Assembly (NCBI GenBank): GCA_003285105.1
Contig: CP030158.1
Coordinates: 3,144,664 to 3,208,663 of the forward strand
DNA length: 64,000 nucleotides
DNA from: Roseithermus sacchariphilus
GTDB lineage: Bacteria; Bacteroidota; Rhodothermia; Rhodothermales; MEBIC09517
Direction of reading: 5' to 3'
In this document: in pieces, positions 22,170-37,232 of the stretch
Layout: every line of letters starts with the position of its first letter
Numbering within the stretch: the first letter of the stretch is position 1
Made by a program: the position numbers and the translations under genes
Notes under the pieces: model-generated
The model's input: only the letters and a program-made list of their open reading frames with translations
Databases searched by the model: none
What the model was told of the DNA's origin: nothing

Positions 22170-23318
22170 TCAGAGCAGCAGACTCACCCCGAAGCGGTGC
22201 ACGTCGTCCAGCGTCTTGATCCGGCTGAAGGCGTAGTCGAATTTGAAGCCGGTGCGGGAGTTGGGGAGGAAGAATTGCAGGCCGGCCCCCAGGTTGAACA
22301 GCGGCTGGCCGTCGCGCAGGTCCCCGCGGGTGATCGTCGTCGGGTTGCGATACGCATTCCCGATGCTGGTGTTGTCCGCGTCCGGGTTGCCCTCGACGAC
22401 CACGTCGTCACCGCCGCCGAAGGGGCTGCCCTCGATCATGAGGAGGTTCCCGCCGCCCCGGAGGAACAGCGTGTTGAAGATGGCCACCTCGCCCCCGAGG
22501 CGGACCTCCTGGTTGAAGTCCCGCGAGTCCCGCACGTCCAGCATGGCCGTGACGGCGGCCGCCTCGCCCCGGTAGGGGGTGATGGACGCGCCCACCTGAA
22601 ACTGGATGGGCAGCGAGAAGGGCTCCGTTTCCAGGAAGACCGGCACGTCGTCCGGGTTCTGCCCGGTTTCGGGGTAGGGGTCCGACTGGAAGCGGAGGTT
22701 GTCCCCGGTCATCTGCAGGTCCGGGCCGAAGTTGGAGATGGCCGCGCCGATGCGCAGGTTGTTCCAGTCGCTCGTGTAGAGCAGGCCGAGATCGAAGGCC
22801 ATCCCCGAGGCGCTGGACTTGTAGATCGACTCCCGGACGTACTTGGCCTGCCCGCCCACCGCAAACCTATCCGTCAGCTGCCGGGCATAGCCCAGGCCGA
22901 TGGCGACGTCATAGGCGCTGAAGGTCAGGCCCGTGCCGCGGGGCTGCTCGGGGGTCGTCTCGATCAGGTCGTCGCCGTAGTTGAGGTACGAGATCGAGAG
23001 GCCGATGCGGTTGTTGACCCCGACGGAAAACACCCCTGAGACGAAGTCGTGGCGCAGGTCGAGCAGCCACATGTTCGTCGTCAGCGTGACCTCGTGGTTG
23101 GGCACCCCCATCATGCCGGCCACGTTCCAGTACGTGGCCGTGGCGTCATTGACGACGGCGGTGTAGGCGCCTCCGAGGGCCGAGGCCCGCGGCCCGACGG
23201 GGATCTTGAGGAAGTTGGCGGCGGACTGGCCCACGTTGTTGAACTGCTGGGCAGCGGACGGGCCGACGCCGAGCAGGCCCACGAGCACGACGGCCAGGGA
23301 GTAGCGTAGAGCGTTCAT
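22170..23318 (-). CDS. PorV/PorQ family outer-membrane beta-barrel protein
   Basis: 382 residues from MNALRYSLAVVL with signal peptide (cleavage after PSAAQ). The PorV/PorQ (UPF0164) hallmark follows at once: GQSAANFLKIPVGPRASALGGAYTAV, here split as FLKIPVGPRASALGGAY and NDATATYWNVAGM. The rest is a FadL-like barrel with alternating strands and a C-terminal VHRFGVSLLL ending in a hydrophobic residue. PorV in the type IX secretion system shuttles cargo to the sortase; paralogues of this family are frequent and many have no defined role. It is last in a three-gene unit after a T9SS-type secreted protein, which suggests it may serve that cargo (inference). Confidence 0.88.
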   Translation of the reverse strand: MNALRYSLAVVLVGLLGVGPSAAQQFNNVGQSAANFLKIPVGPRASALGGAYTAVVNDATATYWNVAGMMGVPNHEVTLTTNMWLLDLRHDFVSGVFSVGVNNRIGLSISYLNYGDDLIETTPEQPRGTGLTFSAYDVAIGLGYARQLTDRFAVGGQAKYVRESIYKSSASGMAFDLGLLYTSDWNNLRIGAAISNFGPDLQMTGDNLRFQSDPYPETGQNPDDVPVFLETEPFSLPIQFQVGASITPYRGEAAAVTAMLDVRDSRDFNQEVRLGGEVAIFNTLFLRGGGNLLMIEGSPFGGGDDVVVEGNPDADNTSIGNAYRNPTTITRGDLRDGQPLFNLGAGLQFFLPNSRTGFKFDYAFSRIKTLDDVHRFGVSLLL

Positions 23319-23418
23319 GGTCTCAGTACGTTTGGATGCGCGGTCTGCGGTTGGGGCTGAGGCTGCGGGCAGAGGGTTGCCGGCGTCGGGCCGGCGCCCT
23401 CGCGCCCTCAACCGCCCG

Positions 23419-26400
23419 CTACTTGATCACGGCGAACTTGCCCGTTTGCTCTTCGCCGTCCGGGGTCTGTACGATGTAGAGGTAAATCCCGAAGGAAACC
23501 TCCTGGCCGTTGTAGGTCTGCAGGTTCCAGCTGGCGATGGACCCTCCTTCGTGCTCGATGACCTGCACCAGTTCGCCGGCCGTCGTGAAGATCTTGATGG
23601 TGCACCGCTCGGGGAGCTGGTGGAACTGCAACTGCCGCTGCACCCCGAAGCGCCCCTGCTCGTACGGGCTCGAGACGACGAAGGGGTTGGGCACCACCGT
23701 GATCTCGTTCATGTCCTCGGCCAGTTGCTCCTCCGAGAACTGCGGTCCGGTCACCGAGAATTCGAAGACGTCGGCGGCGGAGAGGGGTTTGTTGGTGCGG
23801 ATGTGGATGACATCTCCGCTCTGGTAGCCGCCGGCCGCCACGTCCACGTCGAAGTAGTACAGGTAGTCGTCCGGGTAATTGTACCCCTCGTCCACGATCA
23901 CGATGGCCTCGCCTTCATCCCACTGGCCGTTGCCGTTGCCACCGAGGATCTGGTCGAAGACCTCGCAATAGATCTGCACCTCGGACCCGTCGGGCAGGAT
24001 CTTGTAGATCTCGAAGGGAGCCGTGATCGGGCCGAAGGGGCTGGACCAGTCGAAGTAGGTCTGCGGTTCGTCGACGAAGCGGATCTCGAAGTCGAGCGCG
24101 AGCTGCTCCGGCGTCCCAGAGATGTTGCTCCGGGTATTGATGGACAGCGCCTCGTTCGTGGTCGTGATCTCGGCGATGCCGGCCGAGACGTTCTCCACGA
24201 TGACCCGGACGCCGTCGAAGATCGGGGCGTAGTCGGTGGCCGGATCGTAGAGGCCGACGTCTTCGACCGGGTTGCCACTGAGGTCTTCGACGACGGCCCC
24301 GCCCTTGCTCACCGTGTAGACCGTCTCGCCGTCGTCGGTGATGTCGAAGGTGATCTGGTAGGTCCCCGTCTGCAGGGCCGACGGATCGAACACCTGCACG
24401 TCGAACGACTCGATGTCGGCGTTGCCCTGCACCTTGCGGGCCACGCGGTCGGCGCGGCCGGCGACGAGGCCGGCGGGGCGTGCCATCGGGCGGACGCGCA
24501 CGGTGTTGTCGTTCGGCGCGTCGGGGTTGGCCAGGTTGATGGGCGTCTCCAGCGGGGGCACCGGTCCGTCCTCGCGGTCGTAGGCGACCACGGCGTAGAT
24601 GTACTCCTTGCCGTTCTCGACGTCGTTGTCCACGAAGCTGTGCCGGAGCCCGGAGTCGGAGCCGAGGTCGAAGAACCGCCGCAGTTCGCTCTCGCCGGCG
24701 ACGCCGTTGGGCAGGTCGTACGTGGCGCGGGGAATGAAGCCCCGCGTGGTGCCGTTGAGGTCGATGATGGGATCGCCCAGGGTCTGGCCGCCATCGTCGC
24801 TCCGGTAGATCTTATACCCTTCGAAGGCATTGTTGCCGGTGAGCGGGTCGCCCACGGTGCCGTCCGGGTAGATACCTTTCTCGGCCGTGTCGTCCCAGTA
24901 GAGCGTGACCTGCCCGTCGCCCGGCACGGCCACGACGCGCGGCATGGGCGGGGGGGAGGCGGCCCGGTACTCGTTGTTGAACAGGATCTGCGTCAGGATC
25001 GCGTTGTTGATGATGTCGGCCCGGCTGGATCCGTGCACCGAGGCGAAGGTGAAGGGCAGGCTTTCGCCGGGCCTGAGCGTGTAGGGTCCCGATCCGGCCA
25101 CGACGGTGATGTCCGGGCCGTAGGAGTTGGGGATCTGGAAGACGTCACCGGGGGCGGGGGTGACGTTGTCCGGCGGCAGGATCGGGATACCCTGGCGCGG
25201 GTCGTTTTCGTCCAGGTTCACCTTCAGGTCGCCCTTCATCTGGTCGTAGGCATCGGCGTCGGTCTGCGGGGCCGCCGAGTACTGGAAGATGTCCAGCGAG
25301 GTGATACCACGGGGCCGGCCCGTCTCCGGGTCGTTGGGGGTTTCCAGGAACTTCAGCCCCACCCAGCCGACCTTGTTCGGCACGAACCCCGCGGAACGAT
25401 CGTCGCCGTCCCACAGGTAGAGGGTGTTCCAGAGCAGCGAGTCCTCGCTCGTGTAGACGCCGTCGCTGTTGACGTCGGATCGGGGGTCGGCATCGGCATC
25501 CGGGACGCCGTCGCCGTCGCTATCCTTGCCGGGGGGGATCAGGTACGCATAGTCGTCCGTCCACTCGTTCGAGCCCTGCTCGGGCGCGTCGGGGTCGTCG
25601 TGGATGCCGACGTAGACGTTCTCGATCGTCTTGTCGCCGATGTTCGTGAACAGCATCCGGTAGATGATGAAGTTGCGGTTCACGAAGTCGTCCCACTGGA
25701 GCGCCCAGACGTCCACGCGGACGTTCATGGGGGCGGGGGCGGCGCCTTCGGTGGGGTCGTTGTCGGTGATGACGAAGTAGGCTTCGCGGGGGGCACGCAC
25801 CTCGCCACCGGCCACACCGGGGAAGCCGGTCGGGCCGATCTTCGCCGTGGCCGTGGCGACGGGGTCGAAGTTGGGGTTGTTACGGAACGCCGCCTCGGCG
25901 GCCGGCGAGAGCGTGTAGTTGCCGGTTCCGTCGGCGTTGTTGAGCTGCCTCATGGTTTCGATGGTCGGCCAGGAGGAAGGCCAGGAGGCCGGCTTGTCGC
26001 TGAAGGCGATGCCGATGTTCTGCACCTGGTCCGAGAAGCCGGCATCGAAGCCGCGCAACGGCTCAAACTCGTCGTCCGACGTGCCGCGGGCGGCCCCCCG
26101 GGTGGCCGAGGAGGCATACTTCACGCCGTCGATCGTGCCGACGATGAGCGGGGCGACCGTCCAGCGATAGGTGATGCCGCTGTTGAAGGGAAACTCGTAG
26201 CAGAGCTGGTCGCGGTCGTAGCCCAGCGTGCCGTTGTTACGGATGCGTGCGCGGACGTTGCCGATGTCCAGCACGCTCAGCTTCACGTCCGACGGGCCGG
26301 CCGCGTTGGTGGTGAGGATCGGGCCGTCGGGGGAGGTGTGGTAGTGAATCTGCCCGGAGCGGATCAGGTAGTCGTGGTACTCGGCCTTGGTCATGCCGGC

Positions 26401-26505
26401 GCCGGTCTTGTGCTGGCTGTGCGCGGCCGGGACGAGCAGCAGACCGGCCGCGAGCAGGCTCAGGCCGGAGAGCCACCGGCGCGGGCGAGCGGAAAAACGT
26501 CTCAT
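23419..26505 (-). CDS. Large secreted protein with FN3-like domain and type IX-style C-terminal sorting domain
   Basis: 1028 residues from MRRFSARPRRWL (signal cleavage near HSQ-HK); a Met 20 codons earlier is less likely. A Ca-binding Asp-rich loop similar to thrombospondin type 3 repeats lies at 327-356 (DSDGDGVPDADADPRSDVNS). A fibronectin-III-like domain spans about 521-645 (GQVTLYWDD, FEGYKIYRSDDGG, YIYAVVAYDRED). A second acidic loop is at 856-866. The last 95 residues (934-1028) match the T9SS type A sorting domain: EITVVPNPF, then TIKIFTTAGELVQ, and YLYIVQTPDG near the end. It is probably exported and surface-anchored. It lies between a TonB receptor and a PorV-like gene. No enzymatic motif is seen. 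Confidence 0.85.
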   Translation of the reverse strand: MRRFSARPRRWLSGLSLLAAGLLLVPAAHSQHKTGAGMTKAEYHDYLIRSGQIHYHTSPDGPILTTNAAGPSDVKLSVLDIGNVRARIRNNGTLGYDRDQLCYEFPFNSGITYRWTVAPLIVGTIDGVKYASSATRGAARGTSDDEFEPLRGFDAGFSDQVQNIGIAFSDKPASWPSSWPTIETMRQLNNADGTGNYTLSPAAEAAFRNNPNFDPVATATAKIGPTGFPGVAGGEVRAPREAYFVITDNDPTEGAAPAPMNVRVDVWALQWDDFVNRNFIIYRMLFTNIGDKTIENVYVGIHDDPDAPEQGSNEWTDDYAYLIPPGKDSDGDGVPDADADPRSDVNSDGVYTSEDSLLWNTLYLWDGDDRSAGFVPNKVGWVGLKFLETPNDPETGRPRGITSLDIFQYSAAPQTDADAYDQMKGDLKVNLDENDPRQGIPILPPDNVTPAPGDVFQIPNSYGPDITVVAGSGPYTLRPGESLPFTFASVHGSSRADIINNAILTQILFNNEYRAASPPPMPRVVAVPGDGQVTLYWDDTAEKGIYPDGTVGDPLTGNNAFEGYKIYRSDDGGQTLGDPIIDLNGTTRGFIPRATYDLPNGVAGESELRRFFDLGSDSGLRHSFVDNDVENGKEYIYAVVAYDREDGPVPPLETPINLANPDAPNDNTVRVRPMARPAGLVAGRADRVARKVQGNADIESFDVQVFDPSALQTGTYQITFDITDDGETVYTVSKGGAVVEDLSGNPVEDVGLYDPATDYAPIFDGVRVIVENVSAGIAEITTTNEALSINTRSNISGTPEQLALDFEIRFVDEPQTYFDWSSPFGPITAPFEIYKILPDGSEVQIYCEVFDQILGGNGNGQWDEGEAIVIVDEGYNYPDDYLYYFDVDVAAGGYQSGDVIHIRTNKPLSAADVFEFSVTGPQFSEEQLAEDMNEITVVPNPFVVSSPYEQGRFGVQRQLQFHQLPERCTIKIFTTAGELVQVIEHEGGSIASWNLQTYNGQEVSFGIYLYIVQTPDGEEQTGKFAVIK

Positions 26506-26581
26506 GGTCACCGTGGGATGTCGGGAATGGGAAGGTGCGCCCCGGCCGCCGGGCGACCGGGGCACGATGCGGGGGCACCGA

Positions 26582-29500
26582 TCAGAAGTTCAGCTGGACG
26601 CCCATCTCGAAGTGGCGCGGCGGGCCGTAGAAGTTGATGCGCTGCGCGTCCTCGAACTGCGTCCCCGGGTCCAGCGTGAAGTCCGGGGATCCGGTCGTGG
26701 AAAACACCGAGATCACGTTCGTGCGATCGAGCAGGTTGGTGGCCTCGACGAACGGCCGGAGGGTCAGGCGCCCCAGTTCATAGGTGTAGATCAGGCGCGC
26801 GTCGAGCTGCCCCGTCCAGGGCTGCCGGGCCGAGTTGGGCGGGCCGAGCGGGCGGCCGCGGCTGGAGGTGGGCGTGTAAGGCAGGCCGCTGCCGAACCGG
26901 CCGATCAGGTTGGCCGAGAAGCCCTGATAGCGCCCGTTCACGGTGAAGTTCAGCGTGTGCGGCTGGTCCCAGTCGAGCGGGCGGGACGACTTGGGCGGGA
27001 TCACCCCGAGCACGCTGTTGCTGTACCAGTCGTCGTAGGCGGCGGCGGCATCGTTGGCATTGCCGACGGCCCGGCTGAAGGTGTAGGCGACGGTGAAGCC
27101 CACATACTGCTCCAGGCGCTTCTCGGCGCGGACCTCGAAGCCGCGCGCGTTGGCGTAGTCGAGGTTGTCCAGGATCCAGTAGTAATCGCCGCTCTCACCC
27201 AGGATGCGGTTGTACGAGATGTAATCGTAGATGTCCTTGTAGAACAGCGAGGCCCCCAGCTTGAAGTTGTCCGAGACGAGGAACTCGGCGTCGAACTGGT
27301 AGAAGATCGTCTTCTGCGGGTCGATGTTCGGGTTGCCGATGAACGTCTCGAACCCGAGGTCGAAGCCGAAGGGGATGCCGAGCGAGGTCAGGTCCTGATA
27401 GCCCTGCCCGGGCACCCAGGTGCCCGTCCGGTAGCCCTGATACATCTGGTTGTATTCGGGGTACTGGAGGAACTGACCGTAGTTGAAGGACAGCCGGGCG
27501 CGGTCGGTGATGGGGAAGGCGATGCCCAGGCGGGGGCTGAGCCGCCAGTCCGTCTGCGCCGGTTCGGTGGGGATGGCCTCGTCCGGCGTCGCCGGCCGGC
27601 GCACGTTGGCCCCGGAGCTGTAGCCGACGACGGAGGCGATGTCCGGGTCCAGCACATCCAGGCGCAGCCCGGGGCGGACGACGAGGTTGCCGAACTCGAT
27701 CTTGTCCTCGACGTAGGCGGCCAGCTCGAACGGAGACGCCTCCACGTAGAGCTCATCCTGCGGATCCCAGGCCCGGAAGTCGGGGTCGTCCAGCGGGGTC
27801 GATCCGTCCCAGCGGGTGTTGGGGAAGACGTCGTACTGGAAGAGGTCCATCCGGCGATACTTCAGGCCGAAGCCCAGGAGGTTCCGGGGGTTGAGCTGGG
27901 CCGTCAGGTCGAAGCTGAACTGATAGTCCTTGATCTTCCGTTCGACGTACTGGCGGTCGGTGGGAGGGGCCTGAACGGGGATGGTGCCGCGGTTGAGCCC
28001 GCGGGCTTCCAGTTCCTCGTCGGTCAGGTTCTGCAGGCTTTTGATCTGGTCGATCATCTCCTGTGTCAGCCGCTGGCCGCGGAGGTAGTCCGGCGTGCCG
28101 TCGCCGTCGAGGTCCAGCGTGCGGGAGAGCATCAGCGGCTCGTCCAGGTCGGCCGTCAGCATGAAGGGGTAGTCCAGGTACAGCTCGATGTTGCTGTAGC
28201 CGTAGAAGTCGTAGTTGCTACCGCCGTCGGCGTCGGAGAGCCCTTCGGTGTTGAAGGCCCCGATGGTGAGCGCCCGGTTGAAGGCCCGCCAGAAGCGCTG
28301 CGGGTTGTCCGGGTCCTTCATCTCGTCATAGAGAAAGCGGTAGAACCGGTTGTCGGTGAGCGAGCCGCGCAGCTCGTAGAACACGGTCGGCGTCACCCGG
28401 TGGGTGAGCTGCAGGCTGTAGACGTCGATCTCCCGCTCGAACGTGTTGTTGTACTGCGGCAAGAACTTGTAGCTGTGGTCGTAGCCCCGGTATTCGTTCC
28501 GGGTCAGCTTGTAGCCCAGGCGCGCATCCAGGTCCGGGGTGATCTTGACGCCCAGGTTGGCCGTCACGCGCGTCAGGTCGTCGTAGAGGCCCAGGAAGTG
28601 CGTCATCTGGTAGTTGCGCACGCCCACGCGGCTCATCCGGTCCACGTCCACGCCCGCCTCGCGCAGGGCATCGACGAGCTCCTGCGTGATGACGTCTCCT
28701 TCTTCCAGATCAAAGACGGCCTCGGGCAGGTCGTCCGGTTCGAGGGGGGTGCCGCTGGCATCGACGAAGGTGTTGCTCACGGAGCGGTAGAACTCATAGC
28801 CTACCATGTCCTGCCAGGGAAAGACCGCCGGGCGGACGGGGCCCTGGAACTGGTTCTGATACGTGTCGGTGTCCCGGCGGTCCGCATTGAGGAAGAAGGT
28901 GATACGGTCTTTGAGGATCGGGCCGCTGAGGCTGGCTTCGAAGCGGCGCGTGCCCCAGTCGTTGCTGAACGGGCGTTTGTAGGTGAGGTCACGCAGTTCG
29001 CCCGTGGTCAGGTCGAGCCGGTCGCCCGTGGAGGCGACGGGGCCGCCCTTGCCCAGGCCCTCCAGGGTGTAGCCGTCCGTGCCGATACGCACCGAGCCGT
29101 GCCAGTCGTTGCTGCCGGCCGGCGTGTTGACGACGACGATCCCGCTCATGGCCTCGCCGTACTTGGCGCTGAAGCCACCCGTCATCACCTGCAACTCGTC
29201 GATGGATTGCCGGGCCACGTCGAAGCCGGCCCCCGTGCCGGAGAAGGGATCCTCCACGAGGACGCCGTCGACGATGTAGGCGATCTCGTTGCTCCGTCCG
29301 CCGCGGATGTTCGGCTGCCCGCCGGCCCCGTTGTCTACGACGCCGGCCGCCAGCGCGAGCACGTCCGAAAACCCTTCGACGGGCAACTCCTGGATTTCTT
29401 CACCCCGGAAGACGTTGGTCGTGGCGACCTCGTCCTGCTGGATGAGCCGCTGCCCCTGAACGACGACCTCCTCGAGCTCCACACCCGGCGACAGCTGAAA

Positions 29501-29800
29501 GTCCACCAGCGTGGTGAAGTCGCTGCTGACGGTCACCTCGCGCACGACCTGCGTGCCATAGCCGACGAACGAGGCGCGCAGCGTGTAGACGCCGGGGTCT
29601 ACGTTGAGGATGACATACTCGCCATTGAGGTCGGTGGCCGTGCCACGCGTCGTGCCGTCGATGACGATGGTGGCACCGGGAAGCGGATCGCCCGTGTCGC
29701 GGTCGGTCACGGTTCCGGCGATTTTGCCGCTTTGCGCCCGGGCCGAAAGGGGTAGCAACAGGGCGCTGCAGATCAGGGAAAGCAGTAGCTGTCTACGCAT
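26582..29800 (-). CDS. TonB-dependent receptor with carboxypeptidase-regulatory-like domain
   Basis: 1072 residues from MRRQLLLSLICSALLLP (signal cleavage near ARAQ). Residues about 25-105 are a carboxypeptidase-regulatory-like beta-sandwich (GTVTDRDTGDPLPGATIVI, then DLNGEYVILNVDPG). The plug spans about 110-235 (ELEEVVVQGQRL, GGQPNIRGGRSNEIAYIVDG, GGFSAKYGEAMSGIV). The rest is the 22-strand barrel ending in HFEMGVQLNF. Such receptors import or display large substrates with TonB energy. There is no SusD partner; instead a T9SS-type secreted protein and a PorV-like protein follow in the same direction. The substrate is unknown. A long spacer with an A/T-rich island precedes it. Confidence 0.93.
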   Translation of the reverse strand: MRRQLLLSLICSALLLPLSARAQSGKIAGTVTDRDTGDPLPGATIVIDGTTRGTATDLNGEYVILNVDPGVYTLRASFVGYGTQVVREVTVSSDFTTLVDFQLSPGVELEEVVVQGQRLIQQDEVATTNVFRGEEIQELPVEGFSDVLALAAGVVDNGAGGQPNIRGGRSNEIAYIVDGVLVEDPFSGTGAGFDVARQSIDELQVMTGGFSAKYGEAMSGIVVVNTPAGSNDWHGSVRIGTDGYTLEGLGKGGPVASTGDRLDLTTGELRDLTYKRPFSNDWGTRRFEASLSGPILKDRITFFLNADRRDTDTYQNQFQGPVRPAVFPWQDMVGYEFYRSVSNTFVDASGTPLEPDDLPEAVFDLEEGDVITQELVDALREAGVDVDRMSRVGVRNYQMTHFLGLYDDLTRVTANLGVKITPDLDARLGYKLTRNEYRGYDHSYKFLPQYNNTFEREIDVYSLQLTHRVTPTVFYELRGSLTDNRFYRFLYDEMKDPDNPQRFWRAFNRALTIGAFNTEGLSDADGGSNYDFYGYSNIELYLDYPFMLTADLDEPLMLSRTLDLDGDGTPDYLRGQRLTQEMIDQIKSLQNLTDEELEARGLNRGTIPVQAPPTDRQYVERKIKDYQFSFDLTAQLNPRNLLGFGLKYRRMDLFQYDVFPNTRWDGSTPLDDPDFRAWDPQDELYVEASPFELAAYVEDKIEFGNLVVRPGLRLDVLDPDIASVVGYSSGANVRRPATPDEAIPTEPAQTDWRLSPRLGIAFPITDRARLSFNYGQFLQYPEYNQMYQGYRTGTWVPGQGYQDLTSLGIPFGFDLGFETFIGNPNIDPQKTIFYQFDAEFLVSDNFKLGASLFYKDIYDYISYNRILGESGDYYWILDNLDYANARGFEVRAEKRLEQYVGFTVAYTFSRAVGNANDAAAAYDDWYSNSVLGVIPPKSSRPLDWDQPHTLNFTVNGRYQGFSANLIGRFGSGLPYTPTSSRGRPLGPPNSARQPWTGQLDARLIYTYELGRLTLRPFVEATNLLDRTNVISVFSTTGSPDFTLDPGTQFEDAQRINFYGPPRHFEMGVQLNF

Positions 29801-30481: not shown

Positions 30482-32419
30482 ATGGGCGATCAACACGTCA
30501 CGCAACAGCAGGACCGGCAGGCGCTGCGGCGGTTCACCCGGCAACTCATCCAGGACGTGCGAGCGCTGGAATACATGCTGCACGAAGGGGTCTTCGAGAC
30601 CGGCATCACACGCATCGGGGCCGAGCAGGAGATGGCGCTGATCGACGACTACTGGCAGCCCGCGCCCGTTGCCGAGCAGGTGCTGGAACAGAACACGGAC
30701 CCCCTCCTCGTCAGCGAACTGACGCGTTTCAACCTGGAGTTCAACCTACCGCCCCGGCGCTTCGAAGGGGATTGCTTCGGGCAGATCGAGCGGGAACTGA
30801 ACGAGATGCTGCACTACGTACGCTCGCTGGTGCAGCCGCACGGGGCGCGGGTGGCTCTGGCCGGCATCCTGCCCACGATCCACCTCTCGGACATGGTGCT
30901 GGACAACATGATGCCGCTGCCCCGGTATCACGCCCTCAACGAGGCGCTGATGCGGTTGCGGGGCGGCCCGGCCCAGTACCAGATCCGGGGCGTCGACGAG
31001 CTGTTCCTCAAGCACGACTCCATCATGCTGGAGGGGTGCAACACGAGCTTCCAGACGCACCTGCAGGTGGCCCCGGACGACTTCCCGCGCCTTTACAACA
31101 TCGCGCAGGTGGTGGCCGGTCCCTGTCTCGCGGCGGCCACCAACTCCCCGGTGCTCTTCGGCAAGCGGCTCTGGCGAGAGACGCGGATCGCCCTGTTCGA
31201 GCAGGCCGTGGACACCCGCAGCAGCAACCTCTACCTCCGCGAGATGTCCCCGCGCGTGCATTTCGGGACGGACTGGGTGCGGGAGTCGGTGATGGAGCTG
31301 TTCAAAGAGGACATCGCCCGGTTCCGGGTCATCCTGGCCACCGAGGACATGGAGGACCCCTTCGCCCTGTTGCAGCGCGGGGAGATCCCCCGCCTCCGGG
31401 CGCTGATGTTGCACAACGGGACGGTCTATCGCTGGAACCGGGCGTGCTATGGCCTCACCGACGGCAAGCCGCACCTGCGCATCGAGAACCGCATCCTGCC
31501 GGCCGGCCCCACCACGGCCGATGAGGTCGCCAACGCGGCCTTCTGGTTCGGGCTGGTGCAGGGCCTCGCAGCCCGTTACGACGACATCACGGAGGTCATG
31601 GACTTCGACGATGCCAAGGGCAACTTCGTCGCCGCCGCCAGCGTGGGCCTCGACGCGCAGATGACCTGGCTCGGCGGCCACCGGGCGCCCGCTCCGGAGC
31701 TCATCTGCGACGTGCTCGTGCCGCTGGCCGAGGAGGGGCTACGGCAGGCGAACATCGACGAGGGCGACATCGAACGCTACCTGGGCATCCTCGACGCGCG
31801 CGTCCGTTCGCAGCAAACCGGGGCGCAGTGGATGCTCGAATCGCTGGCGCGGATGCGCGGGCAGGGCACCCGCGCCGACCGGCTCAATGCCGTCACCGCG
31901 CACCTGGTGCGCCATCAGGAACGTGGCGACCCCGTCCACACCTGGCCGCTGGCTACGCTGGACCGCAGTACGTCGGTGCGCAACATGCAGGGCTCTCGCA
32001 TCGAGCACTTCATGACCACGGACCTGTTCACCGTCAACGAGGAAGAGCTGGTCGAGCTGGTGGCCTGCCTGATGGACTGGCGGCGCATCCGGCACGTGCT
32101 CGTCGAGGACGAGCAGCACCGCCTCGTCGGGCTGGTGACACACCGCAGCCTGCTGCGCTACCTCACCGAGTACGGTACGCTCAAGAGCGGCCTCGAACCG
32201 ATCCCGGTGCGGGACATCATGATTCGGAACCCGATCGCCGTGTCGCCGGAAACCCGCACCGCCGAGGCCATCGCCCTCATGCGGGAACGGAAGGTGGGGG
32301 CGCTGCCGGTGGTCCGCGACGGCCAACTCGTCGGCATCGTCACCGAGCGCGACTTCATCCGCATCGCCGGGGAGTTGCTGGACGACAGCATGCAGCCGGC
32401 GTCTGACGAAGCCTCATGA
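30482..32419 (+). CDS. Glutamate-cysteine-ligase-like (GCS2) enzyme fused to tandem CBS domains
   Basis: 645 residues from MGDQHVTQQQ; the frame is open further upstream but family sequence starts after this Met. Residues about 35-480 match the GCS2 carboxylate-amine ligase family: TRIGAEQEMALIDDYW, FNLEFNLPPRRF, NTSFQTHLQVAP, and LHNGTVYRWNRACYG. Members form amide bonds from glutamate using ATP. Residues about 505-640 hold a CBS pair (HFMTTDLFTVNEEELVE; then DIMIRNPIAVSPETRTAEAI with VGIVTERDFIRIA). CBS pairs commonly bind adenosyl ligands and regulate attached enzymes. The fusion suggests allosteric control of ligase activity by an adenine nucleotide or SAM (inference). The substrate is not provable. 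The ferredoxin gene follows in the same direction. Confidence 0.88.
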   Translation: MGDQHVTQQQDRQALRRFTRQLIQDVRALEYMLHEGVFETGITRIGAEQEMALIDDYWQPAPVAEQVLEQNTDPLLVSELTRFNLEFNLPPRRFEGDCFGQIERELNEMLHYVRSLVQPHGARVALAGILPTIHLSDMVLDNMMPLPRYHALNEALMRLRGGPAQYQIRGVDELFLKHDSIMLEGCNTSFQTHLQVAPDDFPRLYNIAQVVAGPCLAAATNSPVLFGKRLWRETRIALFEQAVDTRSSNLYLREMSPRVHFGTDWVRESVMELFKEDIARFRVILATEDMEDPFALLQRGEIPRLRALMLHNGTVYRWNRACYGLTDGKPHLRIENRILPAGPTTADEVANAAFWFGLVQGLAARYDDITEVMDFDDAKGNFVAAASVGLDAQMTWLGGHRAPAPELICDVLVPLAEEGLRQANIDEGDIERYLGILDARVRSQQTGAQWMLESLARMRGQGTRADRLNAVTAHLVRHQERGDPVHTWPLATLDRSTSVRNMQGSRIEHFMTTDLFTVNEEELVELVACLMDWRRIRHVLVEDEQHRLVGLVTHRSLLRYLTEYGTLKSGLEPIPVRDIMIRNPIAVSPETRTAEAIALMRERKVGALPVVRDGQLVGIVTERDFIRIAGELLDDSMQPASDEAS

Positions 32420-32491: not shown

Positions 32492-32737
32492 ATGGAAACC
32501 CATCCCACCCACACCTTCGGCCCCCTCACCGTCACCATCGACCGCACGCTGTGCATCGGCAGCGGCAACTGCGTCAACCTCGCTCCGGGCGTGTTCCGTC
32601 TGGATGAGCAGAACCTGGTCACGTTCACCGACGCGCCCGAGCCGGACGCGCTGGATACGCTCATCGAGGCGTGTGCGGTATGCCCCGTTGCCGCCCTCAT
32701 CGTGACGGATGAAGACGGGCGGCAGATCGTGCCCTGA
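32492..32737 (+). CDS. Small single-cluster ferredoxin, probably [3Fe-4S]
   Basis: 81 residues. Cluster ligands are in CIGSGNC (C21, C27) and CAVCP (C61, C64). The first motif has Ser24 where a [4Fe-4S] ferredoxin has its second Cys, the pattern of single-cluster [3Fe-4S] ferredoxins often paired with cytochrome P450s. APGVFRLDE and the terminal PVAALIV are family-typical. C61 is an additional Cys three residues before the expected ligand C64 and could be spare or allow a different cluster. No P450 or reductase is nearby. It lies 72 bases after the GCS2-CBS gene and is convergent with the phytase. Confidence 0.88.
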   Translation: METHPTHTFGPLTVTIDRTLCIGSGNCVNLAPGVFRLDEQNLVTFTDAPEPDALDTLIEACAVCPVAALIVTDEDGRQIVP

Positions 32738-32758: not shown

Positions 32759-33838
32759 TCAGGGAAGCCGGGCCTCGATGGCGCGCCAGTCGTAGAGGTG
32801 GAAGGTGCGGTCGGTGGACATGGCGGCGACGGCGCCCCGGGGGAAGGTGGGGCCGAGGGGGTGGGCCGTGGCGTCTACGCCGTCCGTATCGCGTGCCATC
32901 CAGGGGATCTCGGCCAGCAGCGGGTGTGTGTGCGGCTGCCCCGGGATGCCCTCGCGGGGGTATACGTGTAACTCGCCCCCCTGCTGATCGGAGACAAGCA
33001 GGTAGCCCGTGGAGTCGGACGTAGCATACAGGGCGATGCCCTCGCGGTCGCCGACGAAGTGGTCCGTGCCGAAGACGGCCAGTTCGGCCTGTCCGCTGTC
33101 CGGGTGGGCATAATACTTTCGGATGCCAAAGCCCTCGTCGGCATAGTACACATACCCCAGCACGGGATCGACCGCGACCGCCTCGATCTCGGTGGAGCCT
33201 TCGAAGGATCCGAAGGCCCGTGCGAAGGAGAGGCCGAGCCGGTTCATCCCCTCGACCTCGTGCAGGCGGTACTGGTAGAGGTAGCCCGAGGGGCGGGGAG
33301 CGGTTTTCCGGCTGACGATCACGAAGGTTTCCCCGGTCCCCGGCGGCTGATACACCGCCACACCCATCACCAGGGCATGGTCGGGCTGGTCGGTAAATAC
33401 GGGCAGGCCGCCCCCGTCCACGGGTGTCATGTCCGGCAGGCGAAAGATCCGCAGCCGCTGCCGCCCGCGTTCGGTCACGATGGCCACGTCGATGGTGTCC
33501 GCGCCGAGGGGGACGCCATAGGCCACGTCGACGTTGTTAGGGCGGTCCAGCGCATCACGGCGCAGCGCCGTCTGCTCGGCGCCCGTCAGGTCGAAGACAT
33601 AGAGGCCGCCGGACGACTCCATTTTGTCGGTGCCGAGCAGAAGGCTCCGGGTCGGGTCTGTCGGATGGATCCAGAAGGCCGGATCGTCGCTGTCGTGCGG
33701 CACCGGGTCGGTGACGACCGTCGGGGCGAGGGGGTGTTCGGGCGGGCGAGAGGCGCAACCGGTCGAGAGGTACAGCGCGCAGAGGCACAGCGCGCAGAGG
33801 CGCAGCACCACAGCGAATGGGATGGTTCGGAGGGACAT
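32759..33838 (-). CDS. Beta-propeller phytase (3-phytase), lipoprotein
   Basis: 359 residues. Lipoprotein signal with lipobox LSTGC (Cys at about 28) is encoded partly by a 15-base tandem repeat. The mature part has beta-propeller phytase motifs: HDSDDPAFWIHPTDP, DRPNNVDVAYGV, STEIEAVAVD, YVYYADEGFGIRKYY and VGDREGIALY, rich in acidic residues that hold the catalytic calcium ions. The enzyme releases phosphate from phytate (myo-inositol hexakisphosphate). It lies 96 bases downstream of a TonB-dependent receptor on the same strand, separated by a strong hairpin, which points to an outer-membrane phytate or inositol-phosphate use locus. It is convergent with the ferredoxin gene. Confidence 0.92.
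   Translation of the reverse strand: MSLRTIPFAVVLRLCALCLCALYLSTGCASRPPEHPLAPTVVTDPVPHDSDDPAFWIHPTDPTRSLLLGTDKMESSGGLYVFDLTGAEQTALRRDALDRPNNVDVAYGVPLGADTIDVAIVTERGRQRLRIFRLPDMTPVDGGGLPVFTDQPDHALVMGVAVYQPPGTGETFVIVSRKTAPRPSGYLYQYRLHEVEGMNRLGLSFARAFGSFEGSTEIEAVAVDPVLGYVYYADEGFGIRKYYAHPDSGQAELAVFGTDHFVGDREGIALYATSDSTGYLLVSDQQGGELHVYPREGIPGQPHTHPLLAEIPWMARDTDGVDATAHPLGPTFPRGAVAAMSTDRTFHLYDWRAIEARLP
33773..33802. repeat. Tandem 15-base repeat in phytase signal peptide
   Basis: ACAGCGCGCAGAGGC is repeated twice in tandem, with a partial third copy (GCAGCACC), inside the phytase signal sequence. It encodes the duplicated LCALC run of the hydrophobic core. Confidence 0.65.
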
Positions 33839-33934: not shown

Positions 33935-36847
33935 TCAGAGCGAGACGTTGACGCCCAGGAAGAACGTTCGCCCGGTGAGCTGGTAGCGGTCCAGACGGCT
34001 GCTCAGCCCCTGGTAGTATTGCTCCGGGGCATTGGTCAGGTTACGCACCTGTCCCGTGATGCGGACACCGCGATCGGAGAAGGTGTAGCCGACGAGCAGG
34101 TCCAGCGTCGTGCGCCCATCCTCCCAGCGGTCGAAGCGAGCGATGTCGGCACCGGCCGCGATCTCGTCTTCGTAGTCGAAGACGCTGGCGGCGCTGAGCA
34201 GCATGTCGCTGCGATGGCTGGCGGCCAGACGGATCTCCAGGCCTTCGCGCTGGAAGTAGAGCACGCCGTTGAAGACCTGGCTCGGCTGACGGAACAGAGG
34301 CAGCGTCTGGCCCGGGCGGGTGTCCAGCGTTACCTCCGATTCGATCAGCGCCAGGTTCAGGCTCGTTCCGAACCCTTTGAGCACGCCGGGCAGGAAGAGG
34401 AAGGCCTGATCGTAGATGAACTCCGCACCCCAGAGCCGGGCCCGGTTGGCATTGTCGAGTTGCTGGATCTGGAGTTCCTCGAAGAAAAGACCCCGAAACG
34501 TCACGTCGTTGTGCTCTTCTTCGTTGACGAAGATCTGGTTGTCGATACGTTTGAAGAAGCCGCCTGCGGAGATCATGCCGCCGCTGCCGAGATAATATTC
34601 GAGCGATGCGTCGAGGTTGAGAGACTCGAACGGGTCGAGGTCGGCATTGGCCTGATTCAGGCTGCCCACGTAGACGCCCGGCGTGGTGGTTTCCTCGTAT
34701 TCGAACTCCGCAGTAGCGGCCAGGTCGCGGTAATCGGGGCGGCCGATGGTGTGGGTCCAGGCCGCGCGGGCGACGAGGTGATCGGTCAGGAGCGCCTTAA
34801 GGTGGAGGGAGGGCAGCACGTGCGTGTACGCATGCTCCTCCCGCACGTCGTCGAAGGAGATGGCGTCTGCGTCGGCGTCTGCGGCGATGAGGCGGCTGTT
34901 GGCCGTGGTGGCGGTGTGCTCGACGCGCGCACCGCCCAGCAGGGTGAGGCGGCCGAGATTGACCTGACCCATCAGGTAGCCGGCCGTGACGGTCTCGCTG
35001 TTGCGGTAGTCGTCCTGTACGTCTTCGATGCGCGATCCGACCTCGTCGAGCACGATGCGGGTGGGATTGCTGAGGTTCTCGGACTGCCCGAAGAAGGTGG
35101 CAAAGGCCGCCGCGTCGCCGTGGTGGAAGGGCCGTTGGCCGCCCTGCTCGGGGACCCAGGGGTCGAGGCGGAACGTGCCGAGCGTGTAGGGATCGGTAGC
35201 CTGCACGCCGCCGGCGCCGAGTTCATACTCGGTCTGCGCCAGGTCGGCCTCGACCCGGCGGTCCCGGTAGCGGCCGCCGGCCTTCAGGTAGGCCGGGTAG
35301 TCACCCAGCATGAGGTCATAGCGCAGGTCCGCGCTGATCTCGTAGTTGTCCTCGAACACGTTGCGCCGGTTCAGGTTCAGAGAGCGCAGCACCATGATGT
35401 CCGGGTTGGCCGCGAACGCAGCCGCCTCCGGGGTTGCAGGACGAACGTCGAAGAGATAGCGGGACAGATCGTACCGCAGGGGAATCTGTTCTTCCGTATC
35501 GCCCGGATTCTCGAAGGTGCCGTCCGGCCCCGATTCGTCGGTCGTGCCGCGCGCGAAGGACCCGTAGACGTCCAGTTCCAGAGCGCCCCAGCGCTGGCGC
35601 GTGCCGAGCAGCACGCTGGTGAGGCGCTCCACTTCCTCGTCCCGGCTCAGGTCGAGCTCCATCGAGCCACCCGTCCAGAGCCCCGAGGTGGCCGTCTGGT
35701 CCTGCAGGTCGCCCTCGAAGGTGAGTTCGAACTCCGAGTTGAGCGCGACCTCCCGCGTTTGGGAGAAGAAGCTTTTCAGGTACACGGAGCGATCGTCCGA
35801 AAAACGGTACTCCAGGCTGGCATCGAGGCCGAAGCGGGCGCGTTCGTTGTCTTCCAGCTGGATTTCGTTCTCGTTGGGCAGGAAGAAGCCGTTTTCGTAG
35901 ATCCACTCATCCGGGTCCGTGACCGATACGGTGTAGTCTCGCTTGAAGTAGTTGGCCGAGAGCACCATGCCGAGCTTCTGCTGCGTGCCGAAGCGGCGCC
36001 CGACGGTGCCGGCGATGCGGAAGGGCACGTCGACGTCCCCGAAGTTTTCCGTGTTCTGGCGCTCGTGCATCAGCCCGTCGACGGAGAAGATGACGAACGG
36101 GCGCGGGCGTTCGAAGGCAGACAGGGTGTTGATGTTGAGCGTGCCGCCGACGGCGTTGGCCTCCATGTCCGGCGTGACGGCTTTGACGACCTCGATGCTG
36201 GAGATGACCTCGGTGGGCATCAGGTCGAGCGCGACGGCCCGGCTCCCGGCCGATGAGGCCAGGTTGGAGCGGTTGTCGAGCGTGACGTTGTTGAGGGTGG
36301 GGGAGATGCCGCGGATCGACACGAAACGGCCCTCGCCCTTGTCGGTCTCCAGCGCCACACCGGCGGCCCGCTGTGCCGCTTCGGCCACGTTGATGTCCGG
36401 CAGGCGTCCGAGGTCGTCGCTGGTGAGCACCTCCCGCAGGTTCGGAGATTGCCGGCGCTGGCTGATCGCGTCGAGCTGGCTCTTGCGGGTGCCGATGACC
36501 TGGATCTCTCCGAACTCGGTAACCTGGGGCGCGAGGAAGACGTCCAGCGTCACGGCCTGGTCGGGAAGCACCACGACGGCAACGTTCTTCGGCTCGAAGG
36601 AGAGGCTCCGGACCAGGATGGTCTGCTCACCGGCCGGAGCCCCGGGGATGCGATACCGCCCCTCGATGTCGGTGGCGGCCCCGATGGAAGTCCCGGTGAT
36701 GACCACCGACGCACCGACGATCGGCAGGCCGGTTTCTTCGTCGAGTACCTGTCCGGTCAGGGTGCCTCGTTCCTGGGCGGAGGTGGGTGTCGGGCATACG
36801 ACCCACAGCGCTATCAGGCAGAGTGAAAGCAAAGCGATACGGGGCAT
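33935..36847 (-). CDS. TonB-dependent receptor linked to phytase
   Basis: 970 residues from MPRIALLSLCLIAL (signal cleavage near SAQE); an earlier Met at 36892 is not preferred. A carboxypeptidase-regulatory-like domain covers about 25-107 (LTGQVLDEETGLPIVGASV). The plug covers about 110-240 (FGEIQVIGTRKSQ, RLPDINVAEAAQRAAGV, FVSIRGISPTLNNV, GGTLNINT). The barrel ends in TFFLGVNVSL. The plug wording is that of the large receptor subgroup often seen with carbohydrate or phosphate enzymes. It precedes the phytase gene, so transport of phytate or its breakdown products is the likely role (inference from context). Confidence 0.93.
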   Translation of the reverse strand: MPRIALLSLCLIALWVVCPTPTSAQERGTLTGQVLDEETGLPIVGASVVITGTSIGAATDIEGRYRIPGAPAGEQTILVRSLSFEPKNVAVVVLPDQAVTLDVFLAPQVTEFGEIQVIGTRKSQLDAISQRRQSPNLREVLTSDDLGRLPDINVAEAAQRAAGVALETDKGEGRFVSIRGISPTLNNVTLDNRSNLASSAGSRAVALDLMPTEVISSIEVVKAVTPDMEANAVGGTLNINTLSAFERPRPFVIFSVDGLMHERQNTENFGDVDVPFRIAGTVGRRFGTQQKLGMVLSANYFKRDYTVSVTDPDEWIYENGFFLPNENEIQLEDNERARFGLDASLEYRFSDDRSVYLKSFFSQTREVALNSEFELTFEGDLQDQTATSGLWTGGSMELDLSRDEEVERLTSVLLGTRQRWGALELDVYGSFARGTTDESGPDGTFENPGDTEEQIPLRYDLSRYLFDVRPATPEAAAFAANPDIMVLRSLNLNRRNVFEDNYEISADLRYDLMLGDYPAYLKAGGRYRDRRVEADLAQTEYELGAGGVQATDPYTLGTFRLDPWVPEQGGQRPFHHGDAAAFATFFGQSENLSNPTRIVLDEVGSRIEDVQDDYRNSETVTAGYLMGQVNLGRLTLLGGARVEHTATTANSRLIAADADADAISFDDVREEHAYTHVLPSLHLKALLTDHLVARAAWTHTIGRPDYRDLAATAEFEYEETTTPGVYVGSLNQANADLDPFESLNLDASLEYYLGSGGMISAGGFFKRIDNQIFVNEEEHNDVTFRGLFFEELQIQQLDNANRARLWGAEFIYDQAFLFLPGVLKGFGTSLNLALIESEVTLDTRPGQTLPLFRQPSQVFNGVLYFQREGLEIRLAASHRSDMLLSAASVFDYEDEIAAGADIARFDRWEDGRTTLDLLVGYTFSDRGVRITGQVRNLTNAPEQYYQGLSSRLDRYQLTGRTFFLGVNVSL

Positions 36848-37232
36848 GGTAGAGCGCGCGTCTGGGGATGGGATCGGGGGGATGGACCGCAAGCTACCCC
36901 GGCCGCCTCGCCTTCGATTTATGCCCGTGTTAAGGAGTCGTCATGGTTGTATTAATGCGGTTTGGCGGCGCCCCGACGGAGGGCTGGACCCGCGGCGGTG
37001 GGGGCCTCGGGTGCGGCTCGTCTCTCCGGGTGTGCCCGTCGTTGCACGGGACGGGCCGCTTGTGAAAAAGGCTGCAACTGAACGGGCGTGGTGCGGTAGG
37101 ACTGGAACAACAGGCCGGGTCCGCGGCTCCTTTTTCGGCGAACACGTTCGCCGCAACGCGGCGTGACCAGCGCGGCGTGTCCTCGGCGCGTCAAGAAGTC
37201 CTTCCCGTATTCCCCATCCGTACCCAGGAGTC
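36848..37232. other. Divergent spacer between phytase-locus receptor and RND efflux operon
   Basis: 385 bases without a gene. An A/T-richer stretch at 36914-36960 (GATTTATGCCCGTGTTAAGG, GTATTAATGCGG) may hold the receptor promoter. A perfect 18-base inverted repeat at 37136-37153 precedes the efflux operon. No phosphate-box motif could be recognised with confidence. Confidence 0.5.
37136..37153. promoter_or_regulatory. 18-base perfect inverted repeat, candidate repressor operator for the efflux operon
   Basis: CGGCGAACACGTTCGCCG has 8-base arms around a 2-base centre, 80 bases before the membrane-fusion gene. Its size and symmetry suit a TetR- or MarR-type dimer. On both strands it lacks a following T-run, so a terminator is unlikely. 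No regulator gene is adjacent. Confidence 0.4.

Follow-up and report, generated by a model that had tools for sequence, protein, structure and literature searches.

A predicted GCS2-fold amide ligase fused to a CBS pair, and its AstE/AspA-type hydrolase partner in other lineages

When a putative amide ligase and a nucleotide-sensing domain pair are encoded in a single protein, the question arises of which amide is made and how its production is controlled. Such a gene lies in a stretch of 64,000 nucleotides of the Roseithermus sacchariphilus genome (CP030158.1, positions 3,144,664 to 3,208,663; hereafter the window). A preliminary description had read it as a GCS2-type ligase joined to a CBS pair and followed by a ferredoxin gene, and had proposed direct energy- or SAM-dependent control of a glutamate-derived product, perhaps gamma-glutamylcysteine or another low-molecular-weight thiol or amide. 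The features referred to in the text are as follows:

30482..32419, + strand: predicted GCS2-fold amide ligase with C-terminal CBS pair, 645 aa (open reading frame, Pfam, full-length homologs)
30515..31966, + strand: ligase domain, GCS2/YbdK fold, residues ~12-495 (PF04107, VIA-align)
30623..30631, + strand: E48-Q49-E50, G-x-E-x-E signature, Mg/ATP site by alignment (84/84 homologs; YbdK E17/E19)
31058..31066, + strand: H193-L194-Q195, HxH in YbdK (H136/H138) (H193 84/84, Q195 81/84)
31484..31492, + strand: E335-N336-R337, ExR of the predicted ligase active site (84/84; YbdK E237/R239)
31994..32176, + strand: first CBS motif, T/S-x-x-D/N signature lost (T553 H R S556; kept in 9/76 homologs)
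32201..32377, + strand: second CBS motif, G-h-h-T-x-x-D nucleotide signature (G618...T621...D624; 73/76 homologs)
32492..32737, + strand: ferredoxin-like protein, 81 aa (PF13370/PF13459)

Architecture, fold and active site of the ligase half

The reading frame opens with ATG at 30482 and closes with TGA at 32417-32419; an MG- start is common to homologs of the ligase-CBS protein, and no convincing terminators or promoters were found around the gene. In a Pfam scan the CBS family PF00571 matched in two stretches (96.1 bits) and PF04107 (GCS2) gave a weak, partial match (28.2 bits against a gathering cut-off of 21), while 24 of 28 members of the ligase family matched Pfam GCS2 at E<=0.01. The proposed fusion was borne out: it recurs as a single frame in many genomes, with Pfam and fold matches to both halves, and is therefore not a product of chance. 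The fusion itself is presumably visible in domain databases. A search of the open-access literature found no publication on a GCS2-CBS fusion or a GCS2-AstE operon, a mention in the 2009 Iyer amidoligase survey being possible; what seems to be new here is the partnership with an AstE-type hydrolase and a CBS pair with one pocket.

A PDB sequence search with the whole protein returned matches to the CBS part only, which marks the ligase half as divergent, and profile A3, built from 28 family members, had no sequence match among PDB chains at E up to 1. Predicted models of moderate confidence (mean pLDDT 63.6 for the whole protein; 71.7, with pTM 0.80, for the ligase domain) both found their best fold match in E. 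coli YbdK and its Salmonella relative, at Z 27.5-27.8 for the whole protein and Z 29.3 for the ligase domain (1r8g and 1tt4, by VIA-align), with residues 26-480 superposing on YbdK and, at Z 29.3, a deviation of 3.3 A over 332 residues. Plant glutamate-cysteine ligase (GCL), in a structure with a transition-state analogue, came next (residues 20-479; Z 24.8 for the whole protein and 26.4 for the ligase domain), followed by other GCLs and then by PafA (Z 20.5) and Dop (~20). Glutamine synthetases scored near 13, and a viral fold library held no match to the protein at E<=0.001. On these predicted models we regard it as settled that the ligase half has a GS-like GCS2 fold, closest to that of YbdK.

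Comparison by hhalign was weak, both against YbdK alone (E 0.13) and against YbdK with nine other GCS2 proteins (E 0.005), and the mapping of residues therefore rests on the fold match and on a MAFFT alignment that combines the ligase domains of 28 family members with E. coli YbdK and 17 canonical GCS2 proteins. In that alignment E48/E50 pair with YbdK E17/E19, E86 with E60, R148 with R115, H193 with H136, R235 with R182, W318 with W225 and E335/R337 with E237/R239, and R320, read by eye, stands beside YbdK R228 with an offset of one residue. All 84 aligned homologs keep G46, E48, E50, E86, R148, H193, R235, W318, R320, E335 and R337, with E79 kept in 83 and Q195 in 81. The superfamily is marked by a G-h-E-x-E (GhExE) signature and two active-site arginines (PMC2588565, from part of the text). 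Comparison with GCS2 enzymes found the ATP/Mg and arginine residues present; at the level of sequence the amide-ligase chemistry first proposed holds as a predicted activity, with all GCS2 catalytic positions kept, and the protein is probably an ATP/Mg-dependent carboxylate-amine ligase of the GCS2 fold. It resembles YbdK in fold and in every catalytic position, but differs in an identity of 14-15%, in Q for the second H of HxH, in the added C-terminal CBS pair, in the hydrolase neighbour of its relatives and in two large family-specific inserts (~157-187 and ~241-316), which flank the active site and are largely of low model confidence.

These inserts, together with the rank of PafA and Dop after the GCLs among structural matches, would suit a ligase that tags proteins or peptides as PafA does alongside Dop, with the hydrolase of relatives (below) as the eraser; PafA and Dop likewise share a GS-like fold and combine ligase and amidase activities within one superfamily. 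We consider such a role very doubtful. YbdK and plant GCL superpose better on the models, the Z of ~20 for PafA/Dop falling under YbdK and several GCLs, and no small conserved tag gene, Pup-like or other, was found among the neighbours compared (ORFs >=55 aa).

Nucleotide signatures in the CBS pair

Residues 505-633 match CBS pairs in the fold comparison (Z ~13), and motifs were counted in the 76 homologs with a CBS pair, the window protein included. By the G-h-h-T/S-x-x-D/N definition given in part of PMC6429129, the second motif of the window protein qualifies and the first fails, with S at position 556. At the adenine-side proline position of the first motif, 52/76 homologs have P and 20/76 have L, the window protein among the latter (L540). 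With the signature found in the second motif only, at most one canonical adenosine-nucleotide site is likely in the pair; a comparable case is the CNNM CBS pair, in which one of two cavities is described as usable for nucleotide (PMC6429129, same partial text). The nucleotide-sensing pair of the preliminary description thus survives in part: one canonical pocket is predicted, its signature widely kept, and the pair is not expected to be closed altogether, though the other pocket has lost its motif. In CBS-pyrophosphatase and CNNM, too, a CBS pair bearing an adenosine-type signature is appended as a regulator, but their catalytic or transport domains are unrelated, and it is one intact motif that the window family retains. 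Ligases that lack the CBS pair exist in family f23 of the organism's own phylum, in the Gemmatimonadota sample and on actinobacterial plasmids, which argues that the chemistry can do without CBS control.

Genomic partners and distribution of the family

The ferredoxin gene does follow the ligase gene, as first described, but its membership of the system did not hold: a ferredoxin-like gene adjoins the ligase in 2 of 83 loci (the window and L051 only), and it was rejected as a partner, being a chance or local neighbour. The conserved neighbour, missed at that stage, is an AstE/AspA hydrolase gene, present in 38 of the 83 loci, always downstream and on the same strand. Leaving aside the ligase itself, this is the sole family that lies near the gene in sense orientation in more than one fifth of the 83 loci; it adjoins the ligase or its tandem copy, with several start/stop overlaps (e.g. 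-4). PF24827 scored above its cut-off in all seven hydrolase representatives scanned, and in the hydrolase alignment A4 the motifs HGNE and D-x-N-R are conserved, as are the His of D-x-H and a Glu of ExGxH, with H65, E68 and H167 of the zinc motif invariant. We assume for these four motifs the zinc and substrate roles that they have in aspartoacylase. The first member falls below the equivalogs for both AstE (58.3 vs 305.65 bits) and aspartoacylase (56.5 vs 180).

Searched with the A4 profile at E<=1e-30, the hydrolase occurred in 49 of 296 own-phylum genomes, of which 47 also carry the ligase (47/88 vs 2/208; Fisher p 1.5e-27, kinship ignored), and in 40 of 246 genomes of the planctomycete sample, 39 of them with the ligase (39/57 vs 1/189; p 3e-30, kinship ignored). 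The hydrolase is nearly confined to ligase genomes; the reverse does not hold. The window's genome yielded no such hydrolase, and neither did the 30 sampled genomes of the window's order, 20 of which have the ligase; a ligase-hydrolase pair therefore cannot be the whole story there. In four of four f23 genomes tested, the gene immediately after the ligase, by coordinates, is a more divergent PF24827 member. Neighbour comparison found no third gene conserved with the pair across phyla, and the loci without hydrolase held nothing recurrent (145 neighbour ORFs listed, 10 scanned). At one planctomycete-sample locus without a linked AstE, a carbon-nitrogen hydrolase gene was seen just downstream (L104:8370-9218, +).

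RimK was also considered as a partner of the GCS2-CBS ligase and was rejected, as it is located elsewhere, beside another AstE. This arrangement of a RimK ATP-grasp ligase and an AstE was counted in 19 of 35 genomes (by eye from coordinates), the AstE being a distant paralogue (it matches the A4 profile at E 3e-7 to 4e-12) and a Zn_protease gene preceding in the one case typed; L180:1832-4222 and similar loci carry such a Zn_protease - RimK - AstE operon, often in genomes with the GCS2-CBS ligase. The two arrangements are alike in that an ATP-dependent ligase adjoins an AstE/AspA hydrolase, but they differ in the ATP-grasp fold of RimK and in the distance of its AstE. Two unrelated folds of ATP-dependent amide ligase are thus coupled to AstE-type hydrolases, which supports a make-and-break logic.

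Amines are capped and later uncapped in LysX/LysK and PuuA/PuuD. A protecting-group step of this kind, in which the ligase would attach a glutamyl group to an amine as a cap, to be taken off by the AstE-type enzyme after intermediate steps, is in keeping with the ligase-hydrolase operon and with the parallel RimK and AstE operon. We nevertheless judge it unlikely, given that no third gene travels with the pair across phyla and that the ligase persists without the hydrolase.

Ligase matches were found in 88 of 296 sampled genomes of the own phylum. Profile searches found the protein in 57 of 246 genomes of the planctomycete sample, drawn from the phylum of a Phycisphaerales genome, some of the matches being partial. 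In the Gemmatimonadota sample, drawn from the phylum to which a Gemmatimonadetes genome belongs, 36 of 150 genomes matched, of which one match was CBS-only and four were ligase-only. In 16 of the 88 own-phylum genomes, all of family f23, the protein ends near residue 490 without CBS (five f23 loci checked). A conserved in-frame TGA in f23 homologs was entertained and rejected: it is the ordinary stop of the CBS-less protein, which the match overruns. This family is probably Chlorobiaceae, although no diagnostic gene was found to show it. Further relatives without a CBS pair are carried by plasmids of Streptomyces, Tsukamurella and Nonomuraea (38-39% identity) and of Natrinema (28%). When presence of the CBS pair is mapped on a tree built from 84 ligase domains, a single change suffices; as the two groups that lack CBS form long branches joined to each other, there may have been two changes. 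Hydrolase linkage requires at least 12 changes on the ligase tree, in which family f14 clusters with Fodinibius sediminis, a Balneolaceae member, so that Rhodothermales is the probable order of the window.

A synthase of gamma-glutamylcysteine or another low-molecular-weight thiol, under energy or SAM control, was the product assignment first suggested and is the reading that we find most improbable. Membership of GCS2 and the nearness of the YbdK fold speak for it, as does the gamma-glutamyl:cysteine ligase activity of YbdK (Lehmann 2004, by its title, as cited in the part of PMC2588565 consulted). The family resembles EgtA and the plant and bacterial glutamate-cysteine ligases in superfamily and in the architecture of the ATP/glutamate site, but the cut-offs of all NCBIfam thiol-ligase models, including the EgtA, GCS2-type GshA and YbdK equivalogs, lie far above the scores obtained. 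Its sole NCBIfam match is NF010043, glutamate--cysteine ligase, at 12.7 bits against a cut-off of 409, and the thiol assignment was accordingly not upheld. In addition, the linked hydrolase is of a type that cleaves N-acyl amino acids. If f23 is indeed Chlorobiaceae, as we infer, a further objection is that these bacteria lack glutathione and use N-methyl-bacillithiol instead (PMC6282198, from part of the text).

Several single loci and stretches are worth recording in their own right. Tandem complete ligase-CBS genes followed by an AstE-type gene occur at L058:6666-10541 and L059:6016-9895; the copies fall in two different tree clades, which points to an old duplication and makes a heteromer possible. 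At L083:7175-8647 (-) an extra ligase copy without ~277-433 (the E335/R337 half) retains its CBS pair and sits beside a complete copy, and a contig of a viral collection (L144:4001-4912) has part of a ligase gene at its end (35% identity), which may be host DNA. The window genome's other GCS2 gene is split across two frames (L081:7270-10788; G000:C1 ~2375270-2378790), through either decay or sequencing error, and adjoins a RimK-like (RLAN) ATP-grasp gene, apparently frame-split too, and a C39-like peptidase gene. Within the window, a TonB-dependent receptor gene (33935-36892, -) precedes a phytase-family gene (32759-33838, -) on the same strand, possibly as a phosphate-scavenging pair, and open frames of >1000 codons opposite long genes at 23317-29755 look spurious, as high-GC DNA predicts.

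A candidate make-and-break system

The explanation that we favour, and hold to be somewhat probable, is that a nucleotide-gated GCS2-CBS ligase makes a glutamyl-type amide which an AstE/AspA hydrolase breaks in most other lineages. The kept active-site residues point to activation of a carboxylate and joining of an amide: the ligase would phosphorylate a carboxylate and then join it to an amine, the likeliest carboxylate being the gamma-carboxylate of glutamate or that of a glutamate-like group. The C-terminal CBS pair, with its one canonical adenosine-nucleotide pocket, may tune this activity. The product would be cleaved, in most other lineages, by the AstE/AspA-type zinc hydrolase of the following gene, whose linkage is observed, making ligase and hydrolase a make-and-break pair for one amide. 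In the window's order, where the hydrolase is missing, the product would be either permanent or cleaved by something else. Taken more widely, the family could represent a nucleotide-gated make-and-break system for an undescribed glutamyl-type amide or tag, spread over at least the Bacteroidota group, Planctomycetota and Gemmatimonadota, with only the ligase left in the window's order, a proposal that we put forward only tentatively.

In three phyla, between about a quarter and a third of the genomes sampled have the ligase gene, and its product is unassigned. Plasmid relatives are labelled 'glutamate-cysteine ligase family protein' in NCBI annotation, and our analysis suggests that 'glutamate-cysteine ligase' annotations of the GCS2-CBS family should not be taken as thiol synthesis. 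Because the ligase recurrently pairs with a hydrolase and keeps one intact CBS pocket, both the metabolite and its energy control are open to direct test.
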